DNA from: a virus
IMG/VR virus record: IMGVR_UViG_3300019760_000001
Coordinates: 1-64,000 of that record
Direction: 5' to 3' (one strand)
DNA length: 64,000 bases
The position numbers and the translations under genes are program-made. Below are positions 1-54,704 of this stretch, piece by piece (the stretch's first letter is position 1; every line of letters begins with the position of its first letter). Below the pieces are notes generated by a model that was given only the letters and a program-made list of their open reading frames with translations, was not told the origin of the DNA and searched no databases.

Positions 1-31
1 AATCCAACAAAACAGTCAACTTCAGTAAAAC

Positions 32-53
32 ACAAGCCAATGTGACCTATAAT
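32..53 (+). promoter_or_regulatory. Putative promoter before the ClpP-like gene
   Basis: A perfect TATAAT lies at 48-53. Nine bases upstream of it is ACAAGCC (32-38), a variant of the YTAAGYT element that precedes other -10 hexamers in this genome at the same distance. No TTGACA-like -35 box is visible. It lies about 50 bases before the first gene. Confidence 0.5.
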
Positions 54-103
54 GTAGTCAGGTAGTTAAGATAGACTGCCTGAAACTACAATAAAGGGCC
101 AAT

Positions 104-703
104 ATGGAATTAGAACTAACATTCAACGAAGATAAAGCACCAGGAGCAACTAGCGAATGGGAAAAAGCAGTACCGATAATAGCGGATAAAGATACAGTAT
201 ATGCGTACCTACCAGAAGAGGTATACTCAGTTGGTAATTACTGCGAACTAATACACACATTAGAACACACAAAAGCAAAAACAGTAAAATTAATAATGAA
301 TAACGGTGGCGGCTATATGGATAGTATGCTGAGTATACGTTCGGCAATACAGAAATCCAACGCAAAAGTAATAGCAGTACTAGACGGTACAGTAGCTAGT
401 GCAGCAACTATGATTACGATGTGTTGTGATGAGATAGAAATAGGGGACTGGACAAGTTTTATGATACACAGCTCATCTGGAGGTACACAAGGCAAGCACC
501 ACGAAACTAAAGCATACATGGAGTTTAGTGATAAACTGCTAGCCGGTGTATTCAATGACTTATACAAAGGATTTCTGAGTAATAAGGAAATTAATAGAGT
601 ACTTGAGGGTAAAGATCTGTGGCTAGATAAGGATGAGGTACTAGACAGATGGAAAAGGAAACGTAAATTAAGTTATAATACAGACGGAAAAGGATATAAT
701 TAA
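104..703 (+). CDS. ClpP-like serine protease (S14 family)
   Basis: This 199-residue protein resembles ClpP-type serine peptidases. The family nucleophile is visible in the segment GTVASAAT (Ser99), and the family His in MIHSSSGG (His122), close to the usual ClpP spacing. The segment NNGGGYMDSM matches the substrate-binding glycine-rich strand, and the C-terminal GKDLWLDKDE matches the region after the family Asp. It has no signal peptide. In phages such proteins are often head-maturation proteases, but here it sits before the PhoH and terminase genes and not beside the capsid gene. A role in processing virion or host proteins is therefore inference. The ATG follows a good Shine-Dalgarno (AAAGGG). 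Confidence 0.8.
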   Translation: MELELTFNEDKAPGATSEWEKAVPIIADKDTVYAYLPEEVYSVGNYCELIHTLEHTKAKTVKLIMNNGGGYMDSMLSIRSAIQKSNAKVIAVLDGTVASAATMITMCCDEIEIGDWTSFMIHSSSGGTQGKHHETKAYMEFSDKLLAGVFNDLYKGFLSNKEINRVLEGKDLWLDKDEVLDRWKRKRKLSYNTDGKGYN

Positions 704-1881: not shown

Positions 1882-3231
1882 ATGAAAACAATTGTGATGG
1901 ATACAAATATCCTGCTAAATAACGCACAAGATATGCTGGTAGAAGACACACTGGTAATTCTATGTGAGACTGTATTATCCGAGACAGACAAACACAAAGG
2001 TGGGTTCGAGGAAATCAACTTCCAGGCAAGAGCTGCAGCTAGAATACTAGAGAGTGCTGAAATCGTAGTAACAAGACACCCGAAGTATGGTACAATAACT
2101 GAACTGCTTGTACAAAGTAAGTACATGTTGGGGATAGTTGCACTAAATTCGTACGAAGCAGATGCTGCAGATTACGGTGGTAATGACAGGCGAATAATTG
2201 AAGTTGCACAGAAGTTGGGTTGTCCACTAATGACAAACGACTTGCATATGAAGTTCCAGGCAATAGCAAAAGGGGTGGAAGTGACTAGCCTGAAAGCAGT
2301 TGAGGATGTGCCAATTGAGTTCGTGAAAGAGTTGGCAGTAGAAGATGATGAGCAATTCAGAACACTACACAACAGTGACGTGCTTGGGATTGACCCAGAC
2401 TACCAAATTGGTAACTATAGCTATAAATTCACAAACCCAAATACAAACCAGATGAAGTTAGCAACAGTAACAAATGGGTTCGTTAGTGTGCTTGGTGATA
2501 CCACAGAGAAAGACTTGCGTAAGCAAAGATGTGGACCAATCAATTCGGAGCAGTTACTTGCAAGTAAAGCAATACAAGACCCAACAATGGACTTGGTACT
2601 AATAGAAGGACTTGCTGGATCAGGTAAAAATGTGGTAGCACTGAGCAACGCAATTAGGTTGGTTGAGACTAACAGAGACAAGTATAGCTCGATAGTGTAC
2701 ATCAGATCCCCAATCAATGATGAAGAAAGCGGTGAGGACATTGGCTACTTAGCAGGAAATGATGAGAAGATGAGCGTATACCTCGGCCCAATGGAAGATA
2801 CACTAGACTTCATCGTAAGAAGTGAGATTAACCCAAAAGGCAAGAAGAAGATTGAGATTGACCAAATGGTTGAGGAGAAACGTGACAAATTAGTAGCAGA
2901 TTGCGGTATGGAGTCGATGATATCAACTGGGTTGAGAGGTAGAACATTCCACGATACAGTGTTCATCATCGATGAGGCACAAAATGGAAACACAGCAACT
3001 ACACAGAAAATACTGACAAGAGTTGGTAAGAACTGCAAGGTGATAGTGATTGGTAGTCAGCGCCAAATAGACAACAAATACGTGAATAAGTACAACAATG
3101 GGTTGGCTGTGCTGATGGATGAAGCTAACCGAAGAATGGTAGATACAGACATCAACATGTTCGCAATTACGCTACACAAAGTTGTGAGAAGTGATATGGC
3201 ACTGTTTGCAGAAGGGCTGTTCAGCAAATAA
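1882..3231 (+). CDS. phoH: PhoH-like ATPase with N-terminal PIN domain
   Basis: The start is placed at ATG 1882, one base after the previous stop, because translation from here begins MKTIVMDTN, the first strand of a PIN domain (Asp7 would be an acidic metal ligand). The C-terminal half is a PhoH P-loop ATPase. The Walker A segment is GLAGSGKN near residues 243-250 and the Walker B segment is FIIDEAQN, followed by the family's LTRVGKNCKVIVIG. PIN-PhoH fusions are PhoH2-type proteins, thought to be RNA helicase/ribonucleases, and phoH is a frequent marine-phage gene of uncertain role. The Walker A has Asn after the Lys where most P-loops have Thr or Ser. A stem-loop follows the stop. Confidence 0.88.
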   Translation: MKTIVMDTNILLNNAQDMLVEDTLVILCETVLSETDKHKGGFEEINFQARAAARILESAEIVVTRHPKYGTITELLVQSKYMLGIVALNSYEADAADYGGNDRRIIEVAQKLGCPLMTNDLHMKFQAIAKGVEVTSLKAVEDVPIEFVKELAVEDDEQFRTLHNSDVLGIDPDYQIGNYSYKFTNPNTNQMKLATVTNGFVSVLGDTTEKDLRKQRCGPINSEQLLASKAIQDPTMDLVLIEGLAGSGKNVVALSNAIRLVETNRDKYSSIVYIRSPINDEESGEDIGYLAGNDEKMSVYLGPMEDTLDFIVRSEINPKGKKKIEIDQMVEEKRDKLVADCGMESMISTGLRGRTFHDTVFIIDEAQNGNTATTQKILTRVGKNCKVIVIGSQRQIDNKYVNKYNNGLAVLMDEANRRMVDTDINMFAITLHKVVRSDMALFAEGLFSK

Positions 3232-3233
3232 AC

Positions 3234-3255
3234 ACTAAGGTCACTCGGCCTTAGT
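3234..3255 (+). terminator. Stem-loop after phoH
   Basis: The arms ACTAAGGTC and GGCCTTAGT pair over nine positions (one G-T wobble) around the loop ACTC, starting three bases after the phoH stop. No U-run follows, so this could be a weak terminator or an mRNA-stabilising hairpin. A promoter-like element lies 20 bases downstream. Confidence 0.5.
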
Positions 3256-3275
3256 CAACACTACTTCAACACTCC

Positions 3276-3297
3276 TTAAGAAACACTACAGTATACT
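3276..3297 (+). promoter_or_regulatory. Putative promoter of the terminase operon
   Basis: TTAAGAA (3276-3282), nine bases, then TATACT (3292-3297). This matches the shared element of this genome in both parts and spacing. It lies between the phoH hairpin and the first gene of the terminase group. Confidence 0.6.
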
Positions 3298-3322
3298 AAA
3301 GAAAAACAACAAAGGCACTTCA

Positions 3323-3514
3323 ATGAAGATTCATTATAAAGCTCAAGTGAGCAGCACAAGCAAAGAAGTTGATGGGCTACCAATGACACTAACAGTTGGT
3401 AGTGTTGTGAACTGCAAACTAAAGAATGTAACACCGTTATGCAGGAATGCTGATGACAGAGAAAAAAAGTGGTACAAAGAACAGATCGAGAGGAATACTG
3501 TAGATGGGAAGTAA
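3323..3514 (+). CDS. Small hypothetical protein
   Basis: A 63-residue basic protein beginning MKIHYKAQ, with a Shine-Dalgarno AAAGG before the ATG. I do not recognise it. The sequence looks like a small beta-rich protein (LPMTLTVGSVVNCKLK). It ends inside the start of the next gene (11-base overlap), so the two are probably translated together. Confidence 0.65.
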   Translation: MKIHYKAQVSSTSKEVDGLPMTLTVGSVVNCKLKNVTPLCRNADDREKKWYKEQIERNTVDGK

Positions 3515-20398: not shown

Positions 20399-21640
20399 AT
20401 GGGATATAATACAGGAAAAACAGGTGGAGAATCTACAATAGATAACTCAGCAGGTAACGTACAACTTAACCAACATTACTACAACAAGAAAGCGATTATC
20501 GAATCAAAAGATATGATGTACCTTGGTCAAATGTCAGGTTCAATGTCACAACCTAAACACATGGGTAAAGAAGTAGTTAAACACAGATACATTCCGTTAT
20601 TAGACGACGAAAATGCAGGTGGTGCAGGATTAGGGCTTGATAGTGCTGGTGTAGCATACGCAAATGGTAACTTATACGGTTCAAGTAGAGGTACTGGTGT
20701 AATTTCAGGTAAACTACCAGAATTGTCAGAAGATGCTGAAAGAGTGAACAAAGTTTCTTTCTCAAGAAAAGAAGTTAGAGGTAATATTGTTAATAGAGGA
20801 TTCTTCTTCGAGTGGACAAAAGACGAAGTGAACTTCGATTCAGACCCTAAGTGGAAAGAGCACGTAACAAGAGAAGCAGTAAAAGGTGCTACACAAATTA
20901 ACGAAGACGTACTTGCTATTGAGTTAATTAACGGTGCTGGTGTTAATATGTTCGCAGGTGATGCTACAACATTAGCTACAATTGATGCTACTTCAGTTCC
21001 AACATTGAAAGATTTATACGCTTTAGACACAGAGTTAGATAATAACAAATGTGCAAAAGACACTAAAATCATCAAAGGTTCAAGATTAGTTGATACTAAA
21101 ACAGTTGCGGCAGCTAGATACATCTTCATTACTCCAGACCAAAAAATGGATTACATGACAATCGAAGCATTAGATTCAACAGCTACTAACCCTAAAATGG
21201 CGTTCGTGCCAGTAGAACAGTACGCAGATGCAGACAAAGACGGTAAGTACAGAAATGCAATTCACGGTGAGATCGGTAAAGTTGGTCCATTCAGAATCGT
21301 AGTTAACCCTAAAATGGTTAAATATTCAGATGCAGCTGGTGCGGCAGTTGGTGCGGCATGGACATCAAATGCAACTAATGATGCGTTCAGAAATGATGGT
21401 ACTAAGTTCGAAGCATACGCTTCATTAATCGTTGGTTCAGAATGTTTCACACACATCGGATTCGAATACGGTGCTGGTACAAAAGGTAAGTTCAACGTAG
21501 TTACTAAAACTCCAGAAGAGTTAAGAACTAAAGAGAACCCGTACGCTAAAACAGGTATGACTGTAATCGAGTTCTGGAATGGGGTTCTGGTTGATAGACC
21601 TGATCACTTAGCAGTATACTCAACAGCTTCTAAATACTAA
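20399..21640 (+). CDS. Major capsid protein, N4-like
   Basis: A 413-residue protein, close to the length of N4 gp56. It begins MGYNTGKTGGESTIDNSAGN and has the long loop and helix pattern of HK97-fold coats (for example EVVKHRYIPLLDDENAGG and FNVVTKTPEELRTKENPYAK). Codons are highly regular (TTC, GGT, AAA), as expected for the most expressed gene. A UUCG stem-loop follows the stop, which would isolate this transcript. Confidence 0.85.
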   Translation: MGYNTGKTGGESTIDNSAGNVQLNQHYYNKKAIIESKDMMYLGQMSGSMSQPKHMGKEVVKHRYIPLLDDENAGGAGLGLDSAGVAYANGNLYGSSRGTGVISGKLPELSEDAERVNKVSFSRKEVRGNIVNRGFFFEWTKDEVNFDSDPKWKEHVTREAVKGATQINEDVLAIELINGAGVNMFAGDATTLATIDATSVPTLKDLYALDTELDNNKCAKDTKIIKGSRLVDTKTVAAARYIFITPDQKMDYMTIEALDSTATNPKMAFVPVEQYADADKDGKYRNAIHGEIGKVGPFRIVVNPKMVKYSDAAGAAVGAAWTSNATNDAFRNDGTKFEAYASLIVGSECFTHIGFEYGAGTKGKFNVVTKTPEELRTKENPYAKTGMTVIEFWNGVLVDRPDHLAVYSTASKY

Positions 21641-21657
21641 TTAGAAGCTAGGTGCTG

Positions 21658-21673
21658 ACAGGGTTCGCCCTGT
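21658..21673 (+). terminator. Terminator-like hairpin after the capsid gene
   Basis: ACAGGG and CCCTGT pair perfectly around the stable tetraloop TTCG. The stem starts 18 bases after the capsid stop. The following bases (TGGTTAAC) are only partly U-rich, so it may be a terminator or a 3' end protecting the very abundant capsid mRNA. Confidence 0.6.
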
Positions 21674-21734
21674 TGGTTAACAAACGTCTGGTATCACCGA
21701 TGACAATAAAAATAAGATAAAACAGGAAAACAAA

Positions 21735-27835: not shown

Positions 27836-30800
27836 ATGCCAACTCAAAAAGAATTACTAGATAGTGCGTTCGCAGAACCAACTACACAAACAAATAAATA
27901 CAACACAGATACATACATATACGATGCTGATACCGTATACCAAGACGGACAAGGATATAGAATAGCTGGAATTGATGCACCAGAAATGCCAAAAGCTGCA
28001 CTAAAAGCTGATAGACTGAGCAAAGCAAGAGAAAGTAAACTTGGTAGACACGTAAGTAAAGCAACAGCTGGAGAAGCCGCTAAATTAGAGGCTGAGTTCA
28101 GTACACTGGATTTCAGTGGAATTGATGGGGGCTTCCAAGAAACACACTTCGACGATACAAAACAACAACCAGTATATCAGAATACACCAGAAGCATCGAC
28201 AGTTGGGGTGCATGGTAGAGACGTGATAGAGAATAAGGCATACCAGAATAAAATGGTATCCGATGGGTATGCAATACCTGCATTCGATAATCAAACACCA
28301 GAAGCACAAGAACTGATGCTACAAGCAAAAGAGCAAGGCAAAGGACTATGGGCTGACCCAGAGTACGCTGCAGAAATGGAATCAGTTGCTAGTAAACGTG
28401 GCACAGAAACAGTAAGACCAGTAGAAGATTACAACACGCTAAGAGGAGTTGGTAGTGCTTCGTTCAATGTAGGGGTAAAAGTAGGCTCACTTGTTGGTGA
28501 GGGGATTGAGTCACTTGGACAACTGATTGGGGTTGAGGATGTAGAGAAAAGTGGTACAGCAATACAACAAGCTGCTACAGAGTTCCTACAAAGTGGGTTT
28601 GCTGATAAGATAACTGGGTACAATGCAGTAAACGTGCAAGAACTGAGTAAAGAGATAGAAGACACAATAGAAACAGATGGATATATGTCGGCACTTGGTA
28701 AAGCTGTAACGGATGTAAGATCACTTGAAGTGCTTGCAGGGAGCTTACCTGAAATGGTTGCACTAGCTGCAAGTGTTGGTACAATGGCCGTAGCTAACGT
28801 AAATAATAACATTAACATAGCAGAATCGAAATTAAAGAGAAAATTAACAACAAATGAGAAAGTACTAAGTGCTGGGTCAAGTATTGTTGGTACATACTTG
28901 GATAGATTCGGTGATAAACTAGCATTAAGCGGAATGAATCCAGTTAAGAAAGCACTAAAGACAGTAGTAGACAACATGAGCCAAACAGGTAAACGAACCC
29001 TTGCTAAACAATACGGTAGAGGGATACTACAGATTGGGTCAGCTCCGTTAAGACTTGCTGCTGCTGGTGGAGTAGAAGGACTAACTGAGGCAGGACAAAC
29101 ATTCCTTGAAACAGCCGCACAAACACCAAGAGTATTCGACAAAGGGTTCACAGAAGACGAGATAAAAGAAGCTGAAGTAGCAGGAGTACTAGGTGCTGCA
29201 ATGGGTACACAAATAGCATCACCAAAAGTAGGGTATGACGTGGCAAAAACAGTTGGTACAGTAGCTAATGAGAAGTTGGTAAATATCACAGACAGTCAAC
29301 CAGACCCAACAAATGTTGATGTGTCAAAGACAAGAGATGGTAGACAAAATAGATGGGAGTCAGTTGGTAGTGAAGGGTACGAAGTTGCTCCAGAAGCAGT
29401 AAAAGCACACGCACATGATATTGCTGCATATGCTACAGAGATATGGACAAGTCCGGAAATACAGAAGAAGTCAGGATATGCTGGTAGACCACTTGATGCA
29501 ATGAAAGACGCTACTGAAAAGATAGCAGACGTGTATGGTGTAGACAAAACAGATAAAGTAGCAATGGATGTACTGCATGCTGGATTGGTAAGAGATGCTG
29601 TAAGACACATGACATCGAAAGGTGAAGACGAAGTAAGAGTTGCAACAGACGCTGAAGTTGACTCAATGCTGAGTGAAATGATAAAAAACCAAGAAGTTGG
29701 GATGGTTACTCAGTCAGAAATAGAGCAAATATACAGCAACAGAGTAGCAGAAGAAATAGATACACTAACTGAATCAATGACAGATGAACAGAAAGCTGAG
29801 ATCAACGAAAATACTCCATTAAACGCTGAAGGACTAGCGAAGGTTAAAGCAGTACTACAAGACATGAGAAAGCTTGGTAGTGAGCCGGTAACACAGTATG
29901 CTAACAAGGTTGAAGATGGATTAGAACTGTATGAGAAACAACTTGGTAGTGAAGCAAATGAGGATGGTAAATCACCAAAAAAGACAGCACAACAAGTAGC
30001 AGATGAGATTGAGTTTATGGGATTCGTGAAAAGAAACTCGGTTGGTAAGAGTTTACGTCAGCACGAAGCAGATGTAGTCGGGACAATAGTTAGCCCACTA
30101 ACAAAAGACGAAGATGCAGCAAGTGGAGTAGTGAATGAACTAACAACATTCATGCACTCAAGAGTTGGTAAGCTGGAAGGTGTGACAACACAATCGAAGA
30201 AAGTTGAAGGTCAAAAGCAACGAGTAAAAGTAAAGAGATTGCGTACACCACAAGAGATTAGCAACTACATAATGAGCCAAGAAGCAGAGAATAGCAGAAT
30301 GGCAGAAATAGCAGAAGCTGCGATAGAATCTGGTAACTTGACACCGGCTCAACTAGAGAAGATTACAGAGGCACAAACAGCACTGAATGGTGAAATGGAT
30401 GCGATTGCTAGTATCAAGGAGAAGTTGGAGCTAAAACAGTACAAATCGATGTACACAGAGCTATTAAGTAAAGAATCAGCTGATACAGCACAACAGGACA
30501 CAATAGTAGCCGAATTAGCTAAGTACGAGGACACAAACATACCACAAGCAGATGAGAGTGCACCAGACCTATTCGTAGATGAGGTAATAGAGCAAAATGA
30601 GGGTGACTTGGACAGAGCAATGGCACAAGTTGATGCCGATAGCACAATACCACAAGAAACAAAGGTAGAAGTAGCAGAGAAGATCCGAGCAAAGCAAGAC
30701 GGAGAAGTTACTAAGCCAAAAGAAACAACAGCAGAGACAGTGGCCGAAGCAACAGAAAAGACTGAGAAGTCAATAGATGAAGCAGTAAAGAAAGTTGGTG

Positions 30801-33800
30801 AGCAAATAGTGCAAGTGAAGGCTGGTAAGAGGCTAGACGCAGAGTTGGTAAATGAGATAATCGAGAAGGTACAAAACGACATAGATGAGTACACAGTAGA
30901 ACTTGGTAAACTAGAGAGTGACAAAGCAGCAATACAAAGTAGAATGGACCAACACAAGAGCAGGTTAACAATGGTTAGCAAGATGCTGAAAGCTGCTAAG
31001 AACAAAAAAGACTTAGCACCACAAACACTGGTACAAAGAGTATGGAAGTTGTTCAAGACAGCAAGAGAAGTTATTGGTTCATTGAAGAAGATAATAGTAG
31101 AGCAAAAAGAGAACATCAGACTGGCTAAAGAAGAGATCAAAGAGGTTGACAAAAAGATAAAATCAGTAAAAGCCGACATTCAGATCAAGAAAAAAGCACA
31201 GGAGATGGTAAAGGTTGAGGCACTAGGTATTCCGGTAGTTGAGGGAATAACTAAGTCGAAGTCAGGCGGAGTAAGTACTACACATACAGTATTGAACATG
31301 AAAGATAAAGAAGCTGGATTGATGAAAATCATGCCAAGAATCATCCAAAACGCTGGTAAAAAAGGCGTAGAGAGAGTAAAAACAGCATTGAAAACACTGA
31401 ATACGTTCAGCACAGACAGAGCTAACATACCAGTACTAGAGCAAACAAACTTAGCAAAATTAGAGCTAAACGACAAGAACATACTGATACAAAGTGGAAT
31501 GAACGACATACTGTCAGACCCAGAAAATGCTGAGTTGGTAAAGGGTGCAATGGACACAACATCACTGATAATGTTCAGTAAAGCAAAAGCAATGATGACA
31601 TACAACAGAGACCAGATGCACGACTTGATAGATGGTTCGTTCGGTAACTTGTTCCCAGCAACAGGAATAGTTCCAGATAGTTCGAAGAAGATGTTAGAAA
31701 GCAAGATAAAACGAGGAGAGTTAGTACCAGCAGCAAGCCTGTATGAATCAGCAGGTAAGACACTACTGACTGAGATGGGAATAAAGCTAGACGATTCACT
31801 AATAATTGAGGATAAGAACGCGATTGAGCACTCACTAGGAGCAATGGTATTAAGTAACATGCTAAGAACACACTCGTCACATAAGAACGGTGTATACAGA
31901 CAAAATGCGTTCGTGCAACACGGGATGATAGACTTCGAGAAGCCAAGTGAAGACAAGAGACCTGGTGGAGTAATCAGCGTACTGATGATGGAAGATGTGC
32001 CGGCAGAATACGCTAGAGTTGGGTCAACACTAGAGTTCGCACAAAGCAGTACAACACCAACAATAGACACAGAACCAATACACACAAAGAAAGGTAAGAA
32101 AGCAAGAAAGACAAGCACAGAGATGAGTGATCCAGCAGTTGAGTACCAAGAGAGATTGGGTACTACACCGTGGACGTTCAGTGAACAGGCACACAAAGTA
32201 CTGGGACAATATGCTAAAGCTGATGATACAATTGACGTAGATAAGCTTAAAATGGACATACTGGGGGACTTGGACACAATACTGGCAAGTACAGCAACAA
32301 TGAACGCTGAGTCGGTGCACGCTAAGTACACAGCAGATGAGTTGCAGATAGAGAGAATGATTGAAGTGTATGAGATGGTAGGAGCTGGTGAGTTCTACAT
32401 CCCGTACGACTACACAAAAAGTGGTAGAACAATGATGGACTCAATGATGATGAACCCACAAAACAGTAAGATCAGTAGATTCCTGGTAGGTGCAGGAGAC
32501 ATGACAACAACAATAGAAACTGGTAAAGTAGACAAGGAGACAATGGCGTTCGTAAGAGCTGGTGCAGCACAAGCACTGGACATGGACATCGATAAGTTGG
32601 AAGATGCTACATCAATAGCTAAGATGAGTGAGAAATACTTCACTATCGACGATAATGCAAAAGTAACATACAGCAGTAAAGAGTTCGAAGAAATGGTAAA
32701 AGAAGGTACGCTAGAAGCAGTTAACAAATGGGGTGGAGTACATAGCATAGATGAGAAGTTACACACACTACAGTTGGTACAAATGCTGAATGACTTGGAA
32801 AAGCACGGTATAGCAACAACTAACTTGGCACTAGAGATAGATGGGATTACTAACGGAATGAGTGCGACACTAATGCAAATTGGGTACACAGAAGCAACAA
32901 AACTGCACTTATCGAAAACTGGGATGTACGTTGATGATTACTACGACCGGTACGACAATCATGGACAATACAAAGAGCAAGGCGGTAAAGATATATACCA
33001 AACACCAGAAACAATGGTAGTTGAGGGAATACTGAAGCAAGAAGGTGGAGCAGAGATACTAGCAGCAATGGAAGAAGTACTAGGAGGTAAGTGGAGAAAC
33101 TTCATGAAGGGACCAGTAATGGTATTCATATACGGTGCTGGAATGGCAAACATCCGTCAGGCTGCTGCAAGATCACTGATAGTTGGTAATAGCTACATCC
33201 CTGGAGGAATGAGTAAAGGTGCAACAGATGCACTGCAAAAACTAACAGGTAAGACAGCTGCTGAGTTGGAGATTAAGTACGAGAACAAGATATACAACCC
33301 AGAAAATGGTAAAGTACAAAGTGAAGTACAATTGGCAAAAGAGATAGCAAAGTACGATGAAACGATTGCTAGTGCAAACAAGATGCTGAAGTACAACAAA
33401 GACACTAAGAAACTAGCAAAAGCGGCAGATGATAAGGCTGAAGCTGAAGCAAGTAAAAAACCAATAGCGAAGTTACAAAAACAACTAGCAGACAGAGTTG
33501 CTAAAGGTGACACAACAGTACGGTATATGGAAGATGAGACAGTAAATACACTAACCAACGCAATAGATGAACAAGTTGGTGAACAACTAGCAAATGCGTT
33601 CACAACAGAGTTCGGTGAAGTAGTGAAGTTCAGAGAGTCGGTAAAGCTGATTGAGCAACTGAACTACATGGTGTTCCGAACAGAGCTGAATAAGAAACTA
33701 GCTAAATTGGGTGCTACGAGAATATCGCAGTTAACACAAAAGCAACTAGACAAAGTGTACGCTGAGATGCAGAAAGAAGGGACATACTACAGCTCGAACA

Positions 33801-34672
33801 ATGCTAGTGGTGGACAACAAGAATTAGTAAAACTGGAGAAAACAGATGCAAACACAAGTAAGCTGTCAGTACAGGTGAGAAATGCTGGGTTCCAGAGTGG
33901 TAGTGGAAGTACAGCAGTAACACTAAGCAACCAGGTAAAAGATGTAGTAACAAACGTTGGAGCCGTTGGAGTTGTGCAAATCCATGACGTGGATGGTACA
34001 GTAATGATTGAAGGTAATACAGAAGATGTGCTGAACGTGTACGATGCATTGATGCTAGGAGTAAATGGTGAAAAAGGAATACTACAAGCACAAGCAATGA
34101 ACAAAGCGTTCCTGGACATCAACATGAGACACAGCATACTTGGTAATGCAGTACAGAAGTTACTGAAGCTAAAGAAAGACGGTAAACTGAACATCAAACA
34201 AGCACTAGAGTTGATTGACTTCGACGAGACAGAGAGTGCAATGAAGAGAGTATATCCAGACATGAAAAGTGTGAACCAAGTGGCTGAGGCACTGAATAGT
34301 GGTGATCCGTTAACAGAGATTGATAAAATACATGATAACAGAGTAGCAATGAGAGGTAAGAAAGTAAAATCGAACCAATACTACGCTACAGACATTGCAC
34401 CAGCATACGAAGCAAAGGGTGACGAGACAGTAAATGCTGTGTTCGACGAAAATACAAAAGATGAGCAAATAACTGAGCTTGGCGACGTACTTGGACAATT
34501 CGCACAAAACTTGCGAAGTAAAGCTAAGAAACAAAGTAACTCAAATAGAAGAAATGGTATACTACAATCAATAAATGAAACACTTGGTAATATCGAAGAT
34601 AAGAAACTAAGAAAAGTACTGCAAACTAAGTTCGACCAAATGCAGACACAAAGACTAGAGGAGAACTGCTAA
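27836..34672 (+). CDS. Virion RNA polymerase (N4 vRNAP-type) with N-terminal thermonuclease domain
   Basis: A 2278-residue protein. Residues about 25-180 form a complete staphylococcal-nuclease domain: DADT (Asp30, Asp32), YRIAGIDAPE (Arg42, Asp47, Glu50), HGRD (Arg128) and GKGLWAD, which cover the family's catalytic residues. Residues 200-1200 are largely helical. The polymerase core is near 1250-2200: TKSGR (1527-1531), EIDG with Asp1669 (motif A), Arg1754-x3-Lys1758-x7-Tyr1766-Gly1767 (motif B), and His2050-Asp2051 (motif C). These are the motifs of N4 vRNAP. In N4 the enzyme is packaged, injected, and transcribes early genes from hairpin promoters. The protein ends about 200 residues after motif C, shorter at the C-terminus than N4's (about 3,500 residues). 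The stop overlaps the next ATG. Confidence 0.9.
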   Translation: MPTQKELLDSAFAEPTTQTNKYNTDTYIYDADTVYQDGQGYRIAGIDAPEMPKAALKADRLSKARESKLGRHVSKATAGEAAKLEAEFSTLDFSGIDGGFQETHFDDTKQQPVYQNTPEASTVGVHGRDVIENKAYQNKMVSDGYAIPAFDNQTPEAQELMLQAKEQGKGLWADPEYAAEMESVASKRGTETVRPVEDYNTLRGVGSASFNVGVKVGSLVGEGIESLGQLIGVEDVEKSGTAIQQAATEFLQSGFADKITGYNAVNVQELSKEIEDTIETDGYMSALGKAVTDVRSLEVLAGSLPEMVALAASVGTMAVANVNNNINIAESKLKRKLTTNEKVLSAGSSIVGTYLDRFGDKLALSGMNPVKKALKTVVDNMSQTGKRTLAKQYGRGILQIGSAPLRLAAAGGVEGLTEAGQTFLETAAQTPRVFDKGFTEDEIKEAEVAGVLGAAMGTQIASPKVGYDVAKTVGTVANEKLVNITDSQPDPTNVDVSKTRDGRQNRWESVGSEGYEVAPEAVKAHAHDIAAYATEIWTSPEIQKKSGYAGRPLDAMKDATEKIADVYGVDKTDKVAMDVLHAGLVRDAVRHMTSKGEDEVRVATDAEVDSMLSEMIKNQEVGMVTQSEIEQIYSNRVAEEIDTLTESMTDEQKAEINENTPLNAEGLAKVKAVLQDMRKLGSEPVTQYANKVEDGLELYEKQLGSEANEDGKSPKKTAQQVADEIEFMGFVKRNSVGKSLRQHEADVVGTIVSPLTKDEDAASGVVNELTTFMHSRVGKLEGVTTQSKKVEGQKQRVKVKRLRTPQEISNYIMSQEAENSRMAEIAEAAIESGNLTPAQLEKITEAQTALNGEMDAIASIKEKLELKQYKSMYTELLSKESADTAQQDTIVAELAKYEDTNIPQADESAPDLFVDEVIEQNEGDLDRAMAQVDADSTIPQETKVEVAEKIRAKQDGEVTKPKETTAETVAEATEKTEKSIDEAVKKVGEQIVQVKAGKRLDAELVNEIIEKVQNDIDEYTVELGKLESDKAAIQSRMDQHKSRLTMVSKMLKAAKNKKDLAPQTLVQRVWKLFKTAREVIGSLKKIIVEQKENIRLAKEEIKEVDKKIKSVKADIQIKKKAQEMVKVEALGIPVVEGITKSKSGGVSTTHTVLNMKDKEAGLMKIMPRIIQNAGKKGVERVKTALKTLNTFSTDRANIPVLEQTNLAKLELNDKNILIQSGMNDILSDPENAELVKGAMDTTSLIMFSKAKAMMTYNRDQMHDLIDGSFGNLFPATGIVPDSSKKMLESKIKRGELVPAASLYESAGKTLLTEMGIKLDDSLIIEDKNAIEHSLGAMVLSNMLRTHSSHKNGVYRQNAFVQHGMIDFEKPSEDKRPGGVISVLMMEDVPAEYARVGSTLEFAQSSTTPTIDTEPIHTKKGKKARKTSTEMSDPAVEYQERLGTTPWTFSEQAHKVLGQYAKADDTIDVDKLKMDILGDLDTILASTATMNAESVHAKYTADELQIERMIEVYEMVGAGEFYIPYDYTKSGRTMMDSMMMNPQNSKISRFLVGAGDMTTTIETGKVDKETMAFVRAGAAQALDMDIDKLEDATSIAKMSEKYFTIDDNAKVTYSSKEFEEMVKEGTLEAVNKWGGVHSIDEKLHTLQLVQMLNDLEKHGIATTNLALEIDGITNGMSATLMQIGYTEATKLHLSKTGMYVDDYYDRYDNHGQYKEQGGKDIYQTPETMVVEGILKQEGGAEILAAMEEVLGGKWRNFMKGPVMVFIYGAGMANIRQAAARSLIVGNSYIPGGMSKGATDALQKLTGKTAAELEIKYENKIYNPENGKVQSEVQLAKEIAKYDETIASANKMLKYNKDTKKLAKAADDKAEAEASKKPIAKLQKQLADRVAKGDTTVRYMEDETVNTLTNAIDEQVGEQLANAFTTEFGEVVKFRESVKLIEQLNYMVFRTELNKKLAKLGATRISQLTQKQLDKVYAEMQKEGTYYSSNNASGGQQELVKLEKTDANTSKLSVQVRNAGFQSGSGSTAVTLSNQVKDVVTNVGAVGVVQIHDVDGTVMIEGNTEDVLNVYDALMLGVNGEKGILQAQAMNKAFLDINMRHSILGNAVQKLLKLKKDGKLNIKQALELIDFDETESAMKRVYPDMKSVNQVAEALNSGDPLTEIDKIHDNRVAMRGKKVKSNQYYATDIAPAYEAKGDETVNAVFDENTKDEQITELGDVLGQFAQNLRSKAKKQSNSNRRNGILQSINETLGNIEDKKLRKVLQTKFDQMQTQRLEENC

Positions 34673-35322
34673 TGAGCAAATGTATAATAGACGAAATGAT
34701 AGCACTTACAGAGCGATACGCTAAGGTAGGTGCCAATCAGACAGCAGGCAGACAAGTAGAGCTGAATGAAGCACTACAAGGGCTGAAAATAACTAAATTG
34801 AAAGCAGATGGAGAGGTGACAATAGTTGATGGCACTAACGTAATGCACCCAAACAACACACTAAGTAACGAAGTACAGTTCCTACAGAATGTGTGGAACA
34901 GTAGATACCCAAAAACAAACAAGACGGTAGGGTATAAGAGCATGGTTGAGGCGTTCAATTTCCAGAAGTCGAAGAAGGTAAATGGAAAGAAAGTAACAAG
35001 ACCAGTATTAGAGCAGAAGCAGTTAATGGCAGAGTTGGTTACTAAAGTAGTAGCAAATGACCCTAAGTTCAAGGAAGAACTGATGAAGGCAAAAGGTTAC
35101 ATAGTGATTGGTGATGCAGCAGATCCAGATGGTAGTAAGTTGGGTAAAGATACAACAAAGATGCTCGAAGATACACTAATGAGACACAAAATGCTGCTAG
35201 ACGATGGTGAAGTAGAGGTAAAAACGGTTGCAGAAACTAAGCAAAAAGATGGTAACATAACTGATACAGATAAAAAGAATAATCGACACGAAGAACTGAA
35301 GGAATGTATGAATGGGATGTAA
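34672..35322 (+). CDS. Protein coupled to the virion polymerase
   Basis: A 216-residue protein whose ATG overlaps the polymerase stop (TAATG). It lies where the C-terminal domain of a full-length N4 polymerase would continue. I do not recognise a fold. The segment AKGYIVIGDAADPDGSKLG is the most structured-looking part; the last 40 residues are charged. A role in packaging or injection of the polymerase is inferred from the overlaps on both sides. Confidence 0.65.
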   Translation: MSKCIIDEMIALTERYAKVGANQTAGRQVELNEALQGLKITKLKADGEVTIVDGTNVMHPNNTLSNEVQFLQNVWNSRYPKTNKTVGYKSMVEAFNFQKSKKVNGKKVTRPVLEQKQLMAELVTKVVANDPKFKEELMKAKGYIVIGDAADPDGSKLGKDTTKMLEDTLMRHKMLLDDGEVEVKTVAETKQKDGNITDTDKKNNRHEELKECMNGM

Positions 35323-38300
35323 ACTAGACACACTAATAAACGAAGAAAATGAAGCTAGAGAAGTAATAGAAACTGCTAAACAAGCAGTTGAGTACAAAAG
35401 ACGGATTGAGGCAGGAGTGAACAGAGCTACTCGGCAAGGTATGTATGCAGACCCAGATAAAAGGGTCAGTCCGTACATCGATAGAGGCTCTGAGCTAGTT
35501 GGTAAGACACTGACACTACAGGACATGGAAACTAACACAGAAGCTGACGTGAAGGTTGAGACTACAGAGATGTTGTCGAACAACAAAGTAAGAATAAACG
35601 GTGAACATGATCTGAAACTAGACACAGGAATGCTGACAGATGGAATAACAATGGCCACACTGGGTAGTGAAAAGGGTAAAAGAAATACTGAGTTCATGGG
35701 ACAATTGGGTGGTACGATAGTAAATGACATCGACATACTAGCAACAGTAGCTGCAGAAGCAGATGGTAAGCCAGTAAGTGAGCAGTTGAAGCGAGTGATG
35801 AATATGTACAAAGACGTACTGATGAAAGCTGGTAAAGACGTGAAGATTGACGTAGAGCTGTTCAAGGACCTGGACAATAAAGGCGCAAAAGGTGAGGCTA
35901 CAGTAGATAGTGGTAAATTGAAGTTAATACAAGGTAACACAAGATTCAACAGCAACTCAGACATACTAGCACATGAATTACAACATATACTAATACACAA
36001 TGTACTGGTAAGAGATAAAGTACTGACATCACAGATACTGAGAATGAGAGACGCAATAGCAAAAGAGATCAGCTGGGAAGTATTCTTGCCAGATGGTGAT
36101 GTGACAGCAGAAGATAAGGCGTTCGCTAAAGAGAGATGGGAATATGTGTTTAGAAACCCGATAGCATCAGACCAAGCAAGTGAGTTCCTGGCAGCAGCAA
36201 CAACAAATGAGAAATTAGCAGAAGCACTTGGTACAGTAAATCAGTTCGAAGAGTACCAAATAATGGGTACAATGAAGATAGAACCAGGTACAAAAAGCAG
36301 ATGGAAGAAGCTGTGGAACAACATAGCTAAGATAATCAATCAAGTGTACAGAAACACTAAGTTCAAAGGTAAGGACGCCAGAGAAATAACAATAGACATG
36401 TTAAATAAAGCAATGGAGTTGGGTCATAGTAACAGAAAACAAGAAGAAATGACTATCTCGGAGAGGTTACTACAGAGATTAGACAAGATTGATAGTAAAG
36501 TAGCGGAGTTAACAACACTAGAGAAGAAAGCACAAAGGTCGTACGCTGATTACATCAGACAAACTGAGAACAAAAGTGGACTGAAGAAAGCGATTGATAA
36601 GGTATGGGAAATAAGAGGTATAGCAAAAGCAAAAAGTTACATATTGAAAAATAACATATTCGCAAGTGTGACAAGAGATATGTCGAATAAAGATGTGGCA
36701 AAGTTCTACCAAATGTTCCGACACGCAAAAGCATTTGTAGAGAACGCAGTAGCACCAGTAAAGCACTTCACGATTGAGGTACTGGACAAAGATTACGAAT
36801 TGGGTAGACTATCGAAAGGTGAGAGACGAGCAGCAAAGAGAGTGCTGATAGACACAGATGCGAAAGTGCTGGGCGGTAGTAAGCAAATACTGAAGTACTT
36901 ACAAGACGAGAGAAGAATAACAGCTGAGTTGAATATATTTAAACACAACTATAGTAAACAGGTAGTGGACGCAACAGAACAATTGGGTAAACTACTAGTA
37001 GATAACAGCACAGACACAGCAAATGGATATGTGAATGCATCACAGATCAGTTACGCACTACTAAAGACACAAAACCAAAAGACAGTGGCAGAGATTGACA
37101 AGATGGCGTCGCTGATAGCATTAAGATACAGTGCAAAAGAAAATAAAGATTTGGTAATACAAGCACTGACAAAAGAGTCGGTAACGCCAGAGGGTAAAAT
37201 AGTGGATGTGGCAAAAGGATTTGACCACGCAATGGAGTTGATGAGAACAAATGAAGCAAAAGTACTAGAAGATGCATATAGTGGAGATTCTATGTACCAA
37301 ATAAAAGGCGCAAAGCAAGAAGAGTATATTGGTAACAAAAGATACTACATAGTAGAAGAAAAAGAGTTAAAGGGCTTGGAAAGAGCTAAAATGAGTAACT
37401 TGGGTAAGCAGGAAGCACTGAGTGAAGCAGTTGGTAAAGATATGTACTTGGTAGTAGGCGAATCAATGGAAGTTGGGTATACGGAAGGACTAATGAGCAA
37501 GGTACAGCTGAAGAATGAAGGTGACAGCTTAAGAAGAATTCTAATGGAAGTAAACGAGTTAACAGACGTAGAAGCAGAGATAGTAATAGATAACATGAGT
37601 AAAGAAACAGCTAAAGTAAAGAATGCGTTAATACCAGAAAGATCAGGTAAGAATGAAATATATGACTACAGAGTAAGAATACCACATGAGGTTAAGAGTA
37701 AGTATTTGGAGATAGAAGATGACATATTACCAACAGTTGGTGGTACAGTGTCGGATTTGACTCACAAGCAAGAGGCAATGATAAGTAACAAGGAAGCAAT
37801 AGCGTACTTCAAACGGTTCCACACAAAGTACGAGAGCAGTAGAGATTATAAGTTCGTAGAGATAAGCGAAAACTCAGAGGGCAAAGAAAAAGAATACTGG
37901 GATAGTATACCGTACTACTTAAAAGCACAGATTGATAAAACAATGGGTGGCAGATTGATGGTAGAAGAAAGTATGTTAGTAGACTTCTTTGGATACAAAG
38001 ACATGAGCGCAATGAACTTGCCGATGATAAAGAACAGTAAAAGACGACAGTTGGTGGTGAGAAAGGCTGAGAAGATTGTACAGGAGTTGACACAAGGCTG
38101 GAAACAAGCAGTAGTAGCAAAAACAGCTGGGACAATAATTGGTAATAATGGGTCGAATATGGTAATTGCCCTGCAACACACAAAGAGTAAAGACCCACTG
38201 AAGTACTTGGGTAGATTCACAGACATGTGGTCGGAGATGAATAAATACCAAGACGATAGAAGAATGGCAAGTAAGCTGGCAATCAGAAGAGAAGCTGGTG

Positions 38301-39031
38301 AAACAATAGACGAAAAAGAGTTGAAAAACATAGAAAACAGAATGAAAAACAGTCCAGTTGAACCGTTGATGAAGGATGGGCAGTACACTGCGATATTGGA
38401 AGATTTGAACACAGAATGGATGAATGAAAAAGGGATAATTGAGGGTAAATTGGATGCTGTACTGGACAAGCTGAAAAGAAAGAATGATAAAGTTGGGATA
38501 AAAGAAGTAATAGATACGTTGTACGTGCGAAAAGACTCGCCACTGTATGATTCGACAATGAAGTTAACGACATATGCCGATGTGATAACAAAGATGATAA
38601 TATACCAAGACTTGATGGCAGATTACAATAGTGCTGATAAAGATAAACAGCATGAAACGTTTGCTGGTAAGTTGGGCGGTAAAGACGCTACTGCTAAGCA
38701 AGTAGAGCAAAATGTATTGAATTATGTGGATGGGTTAACAGTAAATTATGGTTATTTGGATAATAGAGGGATAAAGTATGCGAATGATACGCTGATATTC
38801 AGCTTCACAAAGTACTTCTTCAGAGTATTTCCAGCAATGATGAAGATGCTAGGTAAAAAAGCAGGAACAGTGTTCATAACAGAAGGTGCTCAAGGAGTGA
38901 GCGGGATAGACGCAGAAACGCCATGGGATCAGTACTACTCGCCAATAGATGCAATACTACGGAAAGTAGGTGGTTGGGGAGACCCAATCAACATACTGAA
39001 GATGATAACAACACCAGCTGTGGCTAAGTAG
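35312..39031 (+). CDS. Large injected protein with HExxH metalloprotease motif
   Basis: A 1239-residue protein starting inside the previous gene (11-base overlap). The motif AHELQHILIHN places His221-Glu222-x-x-His225, the zinc site of zincin metallopeptidases. Such domains are known in polyvalent phage proteins that enter the cell with the DNA. The rest is long, helical and charged, with no membrane segment. Together with the two preceding genes it gives about 3,730 residues, close to one N4-type polymerase, so it may be the separated C-terminal domain used for packaging and injection. Protease activity is a prediction from the motif only; the third zinc ligand was not identified. It is the last plus-strand gene. 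Confidence 0.65.
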   Translation: MGCKLDTLINEENEAREVIETAKQAVEYKRRIEAGVNRATRQGMYADPDKRVSPYIDRGSELVGKTLTLQDMETNTEADVKVETTEMLSNNKVRINGEHDLKLDTGMLTDGITMATLGSEKGKRNTEFMGQLGGTIVNDIDILATVAAEADGKPVSEQLKRVMNMYKDVLMKAGKDVKIDVELFKDLDNKGAKGEATVDSGKLKLIQGNTRFNSNSDILAHELQHILIHNVLVRDKVLTSQILRMRDAIAKEISWEVFLPDGDVTAEDKAFAKERWEYVFRNPIASDQASEFLAAATTNEKLAEALGTVNQFEEYQIMGTMKIEPGTKSRWKKLWNNIAKIINQVYRNTKFKGKDAREITIDMLNKAMELGHSNRKQEEMTISERLLQRLDKIDSKVAELTTLEKKAQRSYADYIRQTENKSGLKKAIDKVWEIRGIAKAKSYILKNNIFASVTRDMSNKDVAKFYQMFRHAKAFVENAVAPVKHFTIEVLDKDYELGRLSKGERRAAKRVLIDTDAKVLGGSKQILKYLQDERRITAELNIFKHNYSKQVVDATEQLGKLLVDNSTDTANGYVNASQISYALLKTQNQKTVAEIDKMASLIALRYSAKENKDLVIQALTKESVTPEGKIVDVAKGFDHAMELMRTNEAKVLEDAYSGDSMYQIKGAKQEEYIGNKRYYIVEEKELKGLERAKMSNLGKQEALSEAVGKDMYLVVGESMEVGYTEGLMSKVQLKNEGDSLRRILMEVNELTDVEAEIVIDNMSKETAKVKNALIPERSGKNEIYDYRVRIPHEVKSKYLEIEDDILPTVGGTVSDLTHKQEAMISNKEAIAYFKRFHTKYESSRDYKFVEISENSEGKEKEYWDSIPYYLKAQIDKTMGGRLMVEESMLVDFFGYKDMSAMNLPMIKNSKRRQLVVRKAEKIVQELTQGWKQAVVAKTAGTIIGNNGSNMVIALQHTKSKDPLKYLGRFTDMWSEMNKYQDDRRMASKLAIRREAGETIDEKELKNIENRMKNSPVEPLMKDGQYTAILEDLNTEWMNEKGIIEGKLDAVLDKLKRKNDKVGIKEVIDTLYVRKDSPLYDSTMKLTTYADVITKMIIYQDLMADYNSADKDKQHETFAGKLGGKDATAKQVEQNVLNYVDGLTVNYGYLDNRGIKYANDTLIFSFTKYFFRVFPAMMKMLGKKAGTVFITEGAQGVSGIDAETPWDQYYSPIDAILRKVGGWGDPINILKMITTPAVAK

Positions 39032-40359: not shown

Positions 40360-40563
40360 TTAACGTTTGATACGTGAGTACAAGATTGAGCCTGTGATGA
40401 ACACAAAAGCCCAAGTTTGTACAAACAGTAACCGAACGACTTGAAATAAATCCTGTTCGGCGGTTAGCTCCCCAAATGGGGTAAGTGTAGATGCACAGTA
40501 ACCAAAATAGGCTACTGCAATGAATGCTAATACGTCAAAGACGTTCAGTGGTGCGAATTTCAT
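40360..40563 (-). CDS. Small membrane protein
   Basis: A 67-residue protein with two hydrophobic segments (NVFDVLAFIAVAYFGYCAST and FVQTWAFVFITGSILYSRI). Its ATG overlaps the preceding gene's stop (ATGA). Function unknown. Confidence 0.6.
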   Translation of the reverse strand: MKFAPLNVFDVLAFIAVAYFGYCASTLTPFGELTAEQDLFQVVRLLFVQTWAFVFITGSILYSRIKR

Positions 40564-40910
40564 GTTGACTCCTCATGAACAATTCCGTAAATACTACGTA
40601 CTTGCTCGTAAGTAAGACTTGATTCACCATAACGAAATAGTTCACTGATCTCTCGTTCCCACACATTCTTGTGGAGGTGATTTTCTGCGTCTTCCATTGA
40701 TAGAAAATGCTGATAACCGTAATTGTGGTTATTTAAATCTCCTGTCATGTCGTAACTCCCTTCAGTAGTAAGCAGATTTTTACGTCCTACTTTCAGCAAT
40801 TTGACTGACTTGATTTGTTGCTCCAGAGGCACTCCCTTAGCAACAGCATTACCTTCAGGGATAATTGCTATATACTGCCCGATTAAGGGTTTAAATTGTT
40901 TGATATTCAT
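40560..40910 (-). CDS. Hypothetical protein
   Basis: A 116-residue soluble protein starting MNIKQFKPLIGQYIAIIPEGN. The middle looks beta-rich and the end helical (YGESSLTYEQVRSIYGIV). It is overlapped by its neighbours at both ends, as in one tightly translated operon. No family recognised. Confidence 0.6.
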   Translation of the reverse strand: MNIKQFKPLIGQYIAIIPEGNAVAKGVPLEQQIKSVKLLKVGRKNLLTTEGSYDMTGDLNNHNYGYQHFLSMEDAENHLHKNVWEREISELFRYGESSLTYEQVRSIYGIVHEEST

Positions 40911-41098
40911 GTTGACTCCTTTGGTTGGGTATTAGGCCAGTAATCTTTATTTAGCCAGTCACGATAGTCTCTATGTATACCAACTAACCAGTTAGATATA
41001 CTAAAATGGTACCATTCGCAAAACGATAGCATTAATGTTATAGGCAGAAGTAAAAGACCTCTGACAAAATAAAACAATTGTTTAAGTCTCCAACTCAT
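40907..41098 (-). CDS. Small membrane-associated protein
   Basis: A 63-residue basic, aromatic-rich protein with one hydrophobic segment (LFYFVRGLLLLPITLMLSF) followed by a Trp/Tyr-rich tail. Start and stop overlap both neighbours (ATGA-type). Function unknown. Confidence 0.55.
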   Translation of the reverse strand: MSWRLKQLFYFVRGLLLLPITLMLSFCEWYHFSISNWLVGIHRDYRDWLNKDYWPNTQPKEST

Positions 41099-41640
41099 GT
41101 TGACTCCGGCTTCGGTAGTAGAGTTTGGTAATCACCAGATCCTACAGACAGATACTTAGACTCAACACCAGACTTACCAAACATGTGTTCAGCATGAACT
41201 ACCACATCCTCACCAGCTGAGTTAGCGTCCTCGAACATGTACTTCCATACACGTTGAGTAAGATGGCCTGAATTACGAATATTACGATCGCCTTTAGGCA
41301 GAAATATGAATGGGTTAAGCATCAACTTTCCTTGGCATTCTGCCATAATTCCATGATCAAATAATTTCTTCTTGAACTTACTACGTGTTGACTTACTCAT
41401 TTGTGAGGTCAATTTGTGGAAAGGCCCAATCAGAAGATTATGGTAATCAATTGTGTCAGATCCAAATAACTTTAGGGCTGCCTTTAATTCATCTTTAGTT
41501 AGTACGTCAACGAGTACGTCTATGCTTGCGTTGTACATTTTATATCCTCTTACTGTAAATTTATTGTCTTTGAACTTAAGATCTGTGTTGAATGTTTCAC
41601 CTGACTCTAAGTTAATTGCTGTTATACTACGTGTATCCAA
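41095..41640 (-). CDS. RepL-like winged-helix protein
   Basis: A 181-residue protein. Residues about 60-140 run from a helix pair (GPFHKLTSQMSKSTRSKFKK) to KLMLNPFIFLPKGDRN and LTQRVWKYMFED. This order is typical of RepL-type winged-helix proteins, known from small plasmids as replication initiators and from phages as regulators. The start is a TTG after AAGGA. It is the first gene after a 259-base non-coding stretch holding a promoter-like site and two palindromes, so it probably binds them itself, but that is inference. Confidence 0.55.
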   Translation of the reverse strand: MDTRSITAINLESGETFNTDLKFKDNKFTVRGYKMYNASIDVLVDVLTKDELKAALKLFGSDTIDYHNLLIGPFHKLTSQMSKSTRSKFKKKLFDHGIMAECQGKLMLNPFIFLPKGDRNIRNSGHLTQRVWKYMFEDANSAGEDVVVHAEHMFGKSGVESKYLSVGSGDYQTLLPKPEST

Positions 41641-41674
41641 TTTAATATCCTTGTGTTGTTATTCTGATAAACTA

Positions 41675-41696
41675 ATTATACAAGATATTAGCTTAA
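41675..41696 (-). promoter_or_regulatory. Putative promoter of the RepL-like operon
   Basis: On the minus strand TTAAGCT (41696-41690), nine bases, then a perfect TATAAT (41680-41675), 35 bases before the TTG start. It has the same upstream heptamer and spacing as the site before the HU gene. Confidence 0.65.
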
Positions 41697-41697
41697 G

Positions 41698-41716
41698 GGT
41701 TTATAAAATGTAAACC
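41698..41716. promoter_or_regulatory. Operator-like inverted repeat next to the promoter
   Basis: GGTTTA (41698-41703) and TAAACC (41711-41716) form a perfect inverted repeat, extendable to eight of nine bases per arm. It directly abuts the upstream promoter element at 41690-41696. The other half of this 41641-41899 gap is AT-rich with no gene. Confidence 0.5.
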
Positions 41717-41795
41717 TTTATAAGTAAAAGTCACTTAAAATAAACAACCAAAAAATCCTAAGAGTTAACACCATAAACACCAATTAATCCATAAG

Positions 41796-41810
41796 GTTTA
41801 CACAGTAAAC
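41796..41810. promoter_or_regulatory. Second operator-like palindrome
   Basis: GTTTACACAGTAAAC is a perfect palindrome with 6-base arms and a 3-base centre. Its half-site GTTTAC also occurs in the repeat at 41698. Two related sites about 95 bases apart suggest cooperative binding of one dimeric protein. Confidence 0.5.
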
Positions 41811-41899
41811 AACCAGTAACTACCTACAATCGCCGATAAACACTGGGCTTACAAGCAATTGCAAATAATTATGTATATAATATACTAATTAAAGGATTA

Positions 41900-42391
41900 C
41901 TACTTACCATCCAAGATAGCTTGTAGCTTCGGTTCAGGTGCGTAAAGTTGCTCCCACTGATCAGGCTTAATAACCTTCCCGTTGGAGTCCTTAGCAGAAC
42001 CCTTCATCGAATTAGCTGTGTGCACTACCTGCAATCCGTCGACAATCTGCGAAGATGAGATACCTTGCATGTGCAAATTACCCACTTCAATGTAGATTGC
42101 GTCTAGGCTAGAATCAAATGCACCAACTGGTGATACGTCTCCTCTAACAAATCCGTCAACATCGCTACCAGTAGTTAAACCAACAATACACCTAGCCAAA
42201 GACTTTGGATTGTTGTCACAACCAAGTTGATCAGCAAGTTTATCTGCTAAAGGCAACTTCTCCAGTGCTTCTTCTATAACTAATGCTGCTGCTTTGCTTG
42301 CGTCGTAAGAACCTGCTGGGTTATTCCATGTCGTGTCATTTAGTCTGCATATGTCCTCAAAGATTGAGTAAAGTTGCTTTTTGTGTAACAC
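41900..42391 (-). CDS. MazG-like NTP pyrophosphohydrolase (GTG start)
   Basis: A 163-residue helical protein. VIEEALEKL gives the E-x-x-E pair of all-alpha NTP pyrophosphatases, DSSLDAIYIEVGN fits the second acidic helix, and the end LQVVHTANSMKGSAK ... GKVIKPDQW matches the C-terminal VxxANxSK region of phage members. Such enzymes clean dNTP pools or lower alarmone. The GTG follows GGAGAG and overlaps the previous stop. It ends the nucleotide-metabolism block. Confidence 0.6.
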   Translation of the reverse strand: MLHKKQLYSIFEDICRLNDTTWNNPAGSYDASKAAALVIEEALEKLPLADKLADQLGCDNNPKSLARCIVGLTTGSDVDGFVRGDVSPVGAFDSSLDAIYIEVGNLHMQGISSSQIVDGLQVVHTANSMKGSAKDSNGKVIKPDQWEQLYAPEPKLQAILDGK

Positions 42392-54620: not shown

Positions 54621-54682
54621 GTGTGTTCCTTGTTGGTTGGGATTGATTAACAGGGCCTAAAAAGGATAATAAATAGGCTCTG

Positions 54683-54704
54683 CTAACCAATCGAAATTGG
54701 TTAG
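54683..54704 (-). terminator. UUCG stem-loop terminator
   Basis: CTAACCAAT and ATTGGTTAG pair over nine bases. On the minus-strand RNA the loop is UUCG, the most stable tetraloop. It starts just after the stop of the gene at 54709. No long U-run follows, though TATTTATTATCC is A/U-rich. Confidence 0.65.

Follow-up and report, generated by a model that had tools for sequence, protein, structure and literature searches.

A phased GTTTA repeat array and a predicted RNA hairpin in the putative control region of an exchangeable phage gene cassette

Results and discussion

A non-coding stretch of 259 bp between two minus-strand phage genes carries a non-random array of GTTTA repeats that ends over a predicted promoter, preceded by a predicted RNA hairpin. 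We put at about even the chance that the stretch serves to control a gene cassette that was swapped in, with a putative operator array over the promoter together with the hairpin. It occupies positions 41641-41899 (minus strand) of the window, that is, the 64,000-bp stretch of DNA analyzed here, which corresponds to bases 1-64000 of a virus record of 107,713 bp. An exact 123-bp repeat is found at both ends of the record (window 1-123 and the end of contig piece L025), and the phage genome is probably complete, given these identical ends.

Structural genes occupy the plus strand up to ~39 kb, and nucleotide-metabolism and replication genes occupy the minus strand beyond that point. The genes on either side of the control region, both on the minus strand, are one for a nucleotide pyrophosphohydrolase-like protein (41900-42391; phrog_671, 1.4e-8) and one with a TTG start encoding an orphan protein of 181 aa (41095-41640). 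The region has a GC content of 0.27, compared with 0.41 for the window, and overlaps the second-lowest-GC 250-bp stretch of the record (start 41531). A preliminary description had called it the longest non-coding stretch of the minus-strand genes outside an intron; this holds when minus-strand ORFs of 40 or 60 aa are counted as genes, but at a cut-off of 90 aa the stretch ranks eighth. The same description had proposed a control function, which is supported by three features ahead of the 181-aa gene: the non-random repeats, a -10 element, and a ribosome site.

A degenerate direct-repeat array ends over the predicted promoter

Two palindromes had been reported in the region, and both are present: GTTTACACAGTAAAC at 41796-41810 (GTTTAC-N3-GTAAAC) and GGTTTATAAAATGTAAACC at 41698-41716 (GGTTTA-N7-TAAACC). 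Their common half-site and the perfect TATAAT element (41675-41680, minus strand) were confirmed. They do not flank this element as had been claimed, however, but both lie upstream of it, and the second overlaps its -35 position. No convincing -35 hexamer was found for TATAAT; the sequence at 17 bp spacing is TAAACC, within the second palindrome. Promoter-like hexamer pairs in the surrounding 10 kb were at chance level (23 found, 23.2 expected). A Shine-Dalgarno-like AAGGA (41648-41652, minus strand) is located 7 nt ahead of the TTG start.

Taken alone, two such gapped palindromes in AT-rich DNA are weak evidence. At least two with 6-bp arms occurred in 13% of 2,000 shuffles; pairs with a common half-site were rarer, at 9 of 2,000. 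The exact palindrome GTTTACNNNGTAAAC has a single occurrence in the 107,713-bp record; the hexamer GTTTAC itself is frequent, with 55 copies in the window against 44.3 expected.

Both palindromes belong to a larger direct-repeat array. On the minus strand, GTTTA starts at 41841, 41810, 41778, 41745, and 41715, with spacings of 31, 32, 33, and 30 bp, or approximately three helical turns, and a sixth copy starts at 41672. The five starts 30-33 bp apart define a degenerate array of GTTTAY cores (41711-41841, minus strand), the best-preserved part of which is a 32-bp unit present in 2.4 copies with 78% matches (41739-41815, minus strand; TRF score 96). This score is the highest of any tandem repeat in the 107.7-kb record (the next being 59) and was reached in none of 3,000 shuffles, for which the maximum was 67. 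Six GTTTA copies appeared in 3 of 3,000 shuffles; none of 3,000 dinucleotide shuffles reproduced the five-site chain. With the test widened to all 5-mers and to all spacings between 10 and 62, a five-chain arose in 2 of 1,500 shuffles, and chains of four or more in 44 of 1,500. The array is the sole five-chain of the record (searched in four pieces) among 5-mers with at least three different letters. Weaker evidence came from a comb test over periods 12-37, with 34 of 3,000 shuffles reaching the array (3 of 3,000 at a fixed period of 32.5). The GTTTA cores are retained while the spacers between them diverge. Because the first core (41841) falls within the RNA hairpin, the secure array consists of the last four cores, and the first may be accidental.

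No second genome carrying this control region was found. In a viral scan for DNA relatives with GTTGTTTAYTGTGTAAACC, one contig was returned, but its match lies inside a coding ORF lacking the array and was attributed to chance.

The transcribed strand is predicted to form a strong hairpin

Upstream of the array and directly after the upstream gene, the minus strand is predicted to form an RNA hairpin of 24 pairs (16 Watson-Crick, 8 G-U) with one mismatch and a 5-nt loop (41817-41871), a feature absent from the preliminary description. The fold is strand-specific: the minus strand gave an E of -23.7 and a z of -6.8 (0 of 500 shuffles), whereas the plus strand of the same DNA gave an E of -5.0 and a z of 0.1. 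The reliance of the predicted stem on G-U pairs points to a role in RNA rather than as a DNA cruciform. The remaining 175 nt of the control region fold no better than shuffles (z -0.4).

An equally good fold was found in 1 of 14,836 sampled 56-nt windows (record 1-104000, steps of 14), at 78267 on the minus strand; this comparison favors the hairpin, since the hairpin was framed exactly. In a composition-corrected scan of 60-nt windows in steps of 10, it ranks tenth, with some coding stretches alongside it. Among the best-folding places in that scan, 14 of 22 are intergenic, a few of the 14 being two strands of one stretch or both terminal-repeat copies; intergenic bases make up 7,861 of the 107,713 in the record. 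Other strongly folded intergenic stretches are at window 54641-54700 and 21621-21680 and at record 81161 (L023 17161-17220). As a long imperfect RNA stem on the transcribed strand between two genes, the predicted hairpin would resemble the intercistronic RNase III hairpins of T7.

The control region belongs to a variable cassette slot

The nearest relative of the window phage, hereafter the sister (L034, contig IMGVR_UViG_3300019764_000012), has an upstream gene that is 83% identical to the pyrophosphohydrolase-like gene, the conserved left neighbor of the region. The two phages then differ over a variable slot (40564-41899, minus strand), for which the sister has unrelated genes at L034 2547-3709. 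Their common genes resume at a 67-aa protein, the conserved right neighbor (40360-40563, minus strand; 70% identity in the sister). A region of 230 bp lies in the sister's slot together with an unrelated ATPase-like gene of 194 aa (AAA_24 at 3.4e-5, below Pfam's cut-off; Sak4-like phrog_124 at 3.2e-6), which has its own TTGACT-N17-TATAAT promoter and a predicted pseudoknotted leader RNA ahead of it. In five other loci, L028-L031 (with an upstream gene of 33-35% identity) and L035 (73%), the gene that comes next overlaps the upstream one or starts within ~40 bp. Two of the seven compared loci thus carry a cassette at the slot, and each of these cassettes comes with a control region of its own. 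GC content is 0.35-0.39 in the three window cassette genes, compared with 0.42-0.45 in five measured neighbors. These observations suggest that, in this phage group, cassettes are exchanged at a single fixed site along with the control regions that belong to them.

The same 13-bp junction (GGAGTCAACATG-like), in which a stop, a ribosome site, and the next start overlap, ends three successive small genes (window 41095-41107, 40907-40919, and 40560-40572). It recurs at 88% in the sister (L034:3513-3537) and may help cassette exchange.

A predicted leader RNA accompanies replication and recombination genes

The control region of the sister folds at a z of -6.7. After its TATAAT, the leader is predicted to contain a short hairpin followed by a long one; the loop of the long hairpin, TTCGTCCAGATT, can pair with the downstream AATCTGGACA. 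The same layout minus the short hairpin occurs in the window phage itself, near 77.95-78.05 kb, ahead of its O-like initiator gene. Altogether, a predicted leader RNA in which the TTCGTCCAG loop of the long hairpin can pair with a downstream CTGGACA was detected in four phage contigs. These are the window phage (L023:13950-14052, record 77950-78052, minus strand; ahead of the O-like initiator), the sister (L034:2611-2735; ahead of the ATPase-like gene), L043 (7482-7598; after a RecT-like gene and ahead of a DEAD/SNF2-like helicase gene), and L049 (about 120-250; ahead of two genes with HTH_36 matches at 0.0066, below the cut-off, and 9e-10). L043 and L049 were the convincing finds of pattern scans, and all four elements adjoin replication or recombination genes.

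The loop and its partner are common to the examples by construction of the scan patterns, which did not specify the other features. Stem sequences vary between the examples, yet the arms, taken alone, form 17-23 pairs. In the loop helix there are 7-10 pairs, and both of its sides show changes (A-T to T-A, C-G to T-A). Folded without pseudoknots, the four elements gave z values of -5.8, -6.1, -4.3, and -3.1; in the minimum-energy fold of L049, the loop helix replaces the long stem. Rfam gave no match in the leader-RNA loci scanned.

Several hits of the pattern scans were discarded. Three of five in one scan (L044, L045, and L047) lie inside coding ORFs and have no stem, and a further hit, L046, proved to be the sister contig. 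In a second scan with nine hits, L048 and L050-L054 lack a stem around the loop, and all but L054 are also in ORFs. A scan of genome_contigs with a tighter pattern gave a single hit (L055) in an ORF, which we regard as a coding chance hit.

Being common to phages that otherwise differ, such a leader RNA could serve more generally to control phage replication genes. Going further, the slot might be an RNA-controlled module, with the leader representing a new cis-acting RNA class that controls phage DNA-replication genes and the window hairpin being its diverged counterpart; we hold this to be improbable. The four examples are few. Homology between the window hairpin and the sister's pseudoknot RNA was rejected, as no sequence match was found. 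A CCAGU/ACUGG loop pairing can be drawn by eye in the window hairpin, but it leaves no linker over the long stem and was left uncounted.

The 181-aa protein cannot be assigned to RepL

The gene following the control region had been taken for a winged-helix RepL. The RepL profile PF05732 had no match in the whole record at E values up to 10. At the same threshold, Pfam and PHROGs searches of the 181-aa protein returned only FANC_SAP (0.27) and a holin family (0.1), and an NCBIfam search returned nothing. No relatives were found in phages, viral_contigs, or genome_contigs. The sole plasmid match had an E of 0.1 over 38 residues, the one match among PDB sequences an E of 1.3, and two phage matches to the 111-aa core E values of 5 and 7. 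The gene was absent from 21 related phage records besides its own, most of which are fragments (four are of 90-101 kb); 16 of these were searched with a positive control and the other five, including L035, without one.

Single-sequence AlphaFold2 models reached a pLDDT of 43 for the whole protein and 53 for the 111-aa part, and Foldseek with the latter model (pLDDT 53) returned nothing (best E 2.7). By eye, the protein contains a LMLNPFIFLPKGD stretch that we take to be loosely similar to RepL. The protein may still have a winged-helix fold. As the profile, family, PDB-sequence, and fold searches were all negative or uninformative, we rejected the RepL identity, and the analysis argues against the tempting annotation as RepL or origin.

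An operator model and its alternatives

In the explanation that we prefer, the 24-bp hairpin in the minus-strand transcript would probably end, process (e.g. through RNase III), or stabilize the upstream transcript and would separate it from the cassette. The four or five GTTTA cores, placed every three turns and some with a partial dyad, extend as far as the -35 position of the putative TATAAT promoter. Cooperative binding of a protein along one side of the helix would occupy the whole array and govern the output of the promoter. Phase-dependent cooperative binding of this kind is described for iteron-binding Rep proteins (PMC4980987). The cheapest candidate binder would be the 181-aa product itself as an autoregulator, which is plausible by position. 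The searches established no DNA-binding domain in this protein, so a different protein, from the phage or its host, could be the one that binds.

Operator arrays of autoregulated phage and plasmid regulators are known as a class. The control region resembles them in its repeated half-sites and dyads that end over the regulator gene's own -35. As in an operator whose sites overlap its own promoter, the palindrome at 41698-41716 covers the -35 position of the predicted TATAAT promoter. It differs in that five same-direction sites over ~130 bp exceed the need of simple repression. The poor -35, the moderate comb test (34/3,000), and the four-core result (44/1,500) weigh against the operator reading, and the hairpin part is weakened by several other places in the genome that fold as strongly, some of them coding. 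The operator model nevertheless provides a compact, testable regulatory array.

Alternatively, the RNA may be the essential element, with the hairpin, in common with the leader that the sister carries in this slot, acting as a cis-acting RNA in processing, stability, termination control, or as a sensor, and with the repeats being secondary. The z of -6.8 on the coding strand only fits this idea, as do the z of -6.7 in the sister region and the presence of the pseudoknot in two further contigs and once in the window's phage. However, the window hairpin and the sister element have no common sequence, the window hairpin lacks the TTCGTCCAG loop, and the rest of the control region folds like shuffles (z -0.4). 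Moreover, since TATAAT lies 3' of the hairpin, the hairpin would be missing from a transcript that starts at that promoter. On balance, we judge this explanation unlikely. The region could also be an unselected AT-rich leftover of the cassette swap, the array being a decaying tandem duplication without function. This would agree with the presence of just 2.4 copies at 78%, with the lack of a preserved array in any relative found, and with the moderate comb test, in which 34 of 3,000 shuffles reached the array. The cores, however, were kept while the spacers diverged, and the spacing stays near three turns; in addition, phages seldom retain 259 bp of idle DNA. These points make a functionless leftover quite improbable. 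An N4-type virion RNA polymerase promoter, formed by extrusion of GTTTAC-N3-GTAAAC with its 6-bp stem and 3-nt loop, would fit in stem and loop sizes, and this phage, like N4, encodes a virion-RNA-polymerase-like protein, here split (phrog_2206). Window 27836-34672 corresponds to positions 1086-1925 of that family and 35312-39031 to positions 2280-3359; what we take to be polymerase motif patterns are present in the first part. The palindrome loops in the window are ACA and TGT, and so lack the 5'G and 3'A stated to be required in the N4 promoter loop (PMC4496689). Perfect-stem hairpins with a C-G[AG]A-G loop number zero in the record (one each for two control loops), and 3-nt loops are not enriched (32, compared with 25-35 for loops of 4-8 nt). 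This phage may use a different promoter grammar, but an N4-type promoter at this site seems highly improbable.

An origin-like function had also been proposed for the region. As an iteron-type origin, it would be bound at its repeats by the 181-aa protein, melt in its AT-rich part, and start replication, making it a plasmid replicon inside a phage. As in the plasmid iteron origins of RK2, P1, F, and R6K, several phased direct repeats lie in AT-rich DNA (GC 0.27, the second-lowest 250-bp stretch of the record) beside a candidate DNA-binding gene. The period of ~32 bp is longer than the 17-22 bp of these origins, although in PMC4980987 iteron origins are given 2-7 repeats, usually of 17-22 bp but of up to 76 bp. 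Unlike them, the region has no convincing DnaA box or IHF site, its initiator identity is unsupported, and its candidate gene was found in none of the 21 related records, most of them fragments. Using what we take to be the DnaA-box and IHF consensus sequences, DnaA-box-like sites were found only at one mismatch (2, compared with 0.54 expected), and no IHF consensus site was present in the region. The RepL profile was unmatched, and no adjacent initiator of a known Rep family was found. The phage instead has an O-like initiator gene elsewhere (record 77370-77912; HTH_36 2.1e-6, phrog_678 1.3e-8). This initiator is not shown to be the general one of the group: relatives were found in 2 of 11 other records (G003, with a 44% relative, and G008, with a weak one) and in none of the other nine searched, which leaves some room for an origin here. 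The cumulative GC skew, proposed as a check, did not mark an origin, as it has a maximum at 40,567 (39,080 after drift removal), which is terminus-like, rather than a minimum. This maximum coincides with the switch in gene orientation, which also drives skew. Taken together, we regard an iteron-type origin as very doubtful.

After drift correction, the cumulative GC skew reaches its minimum at 100,908. A ParB-like gene is located there, at the divergence of gene orientation (record 100692-101483, L024:16692-17483), with PHROGs matches and a Pfam ParB_N value of only 0.068. Judged by these sequence features, the ParB-like locus would be the better place to look for an origin.
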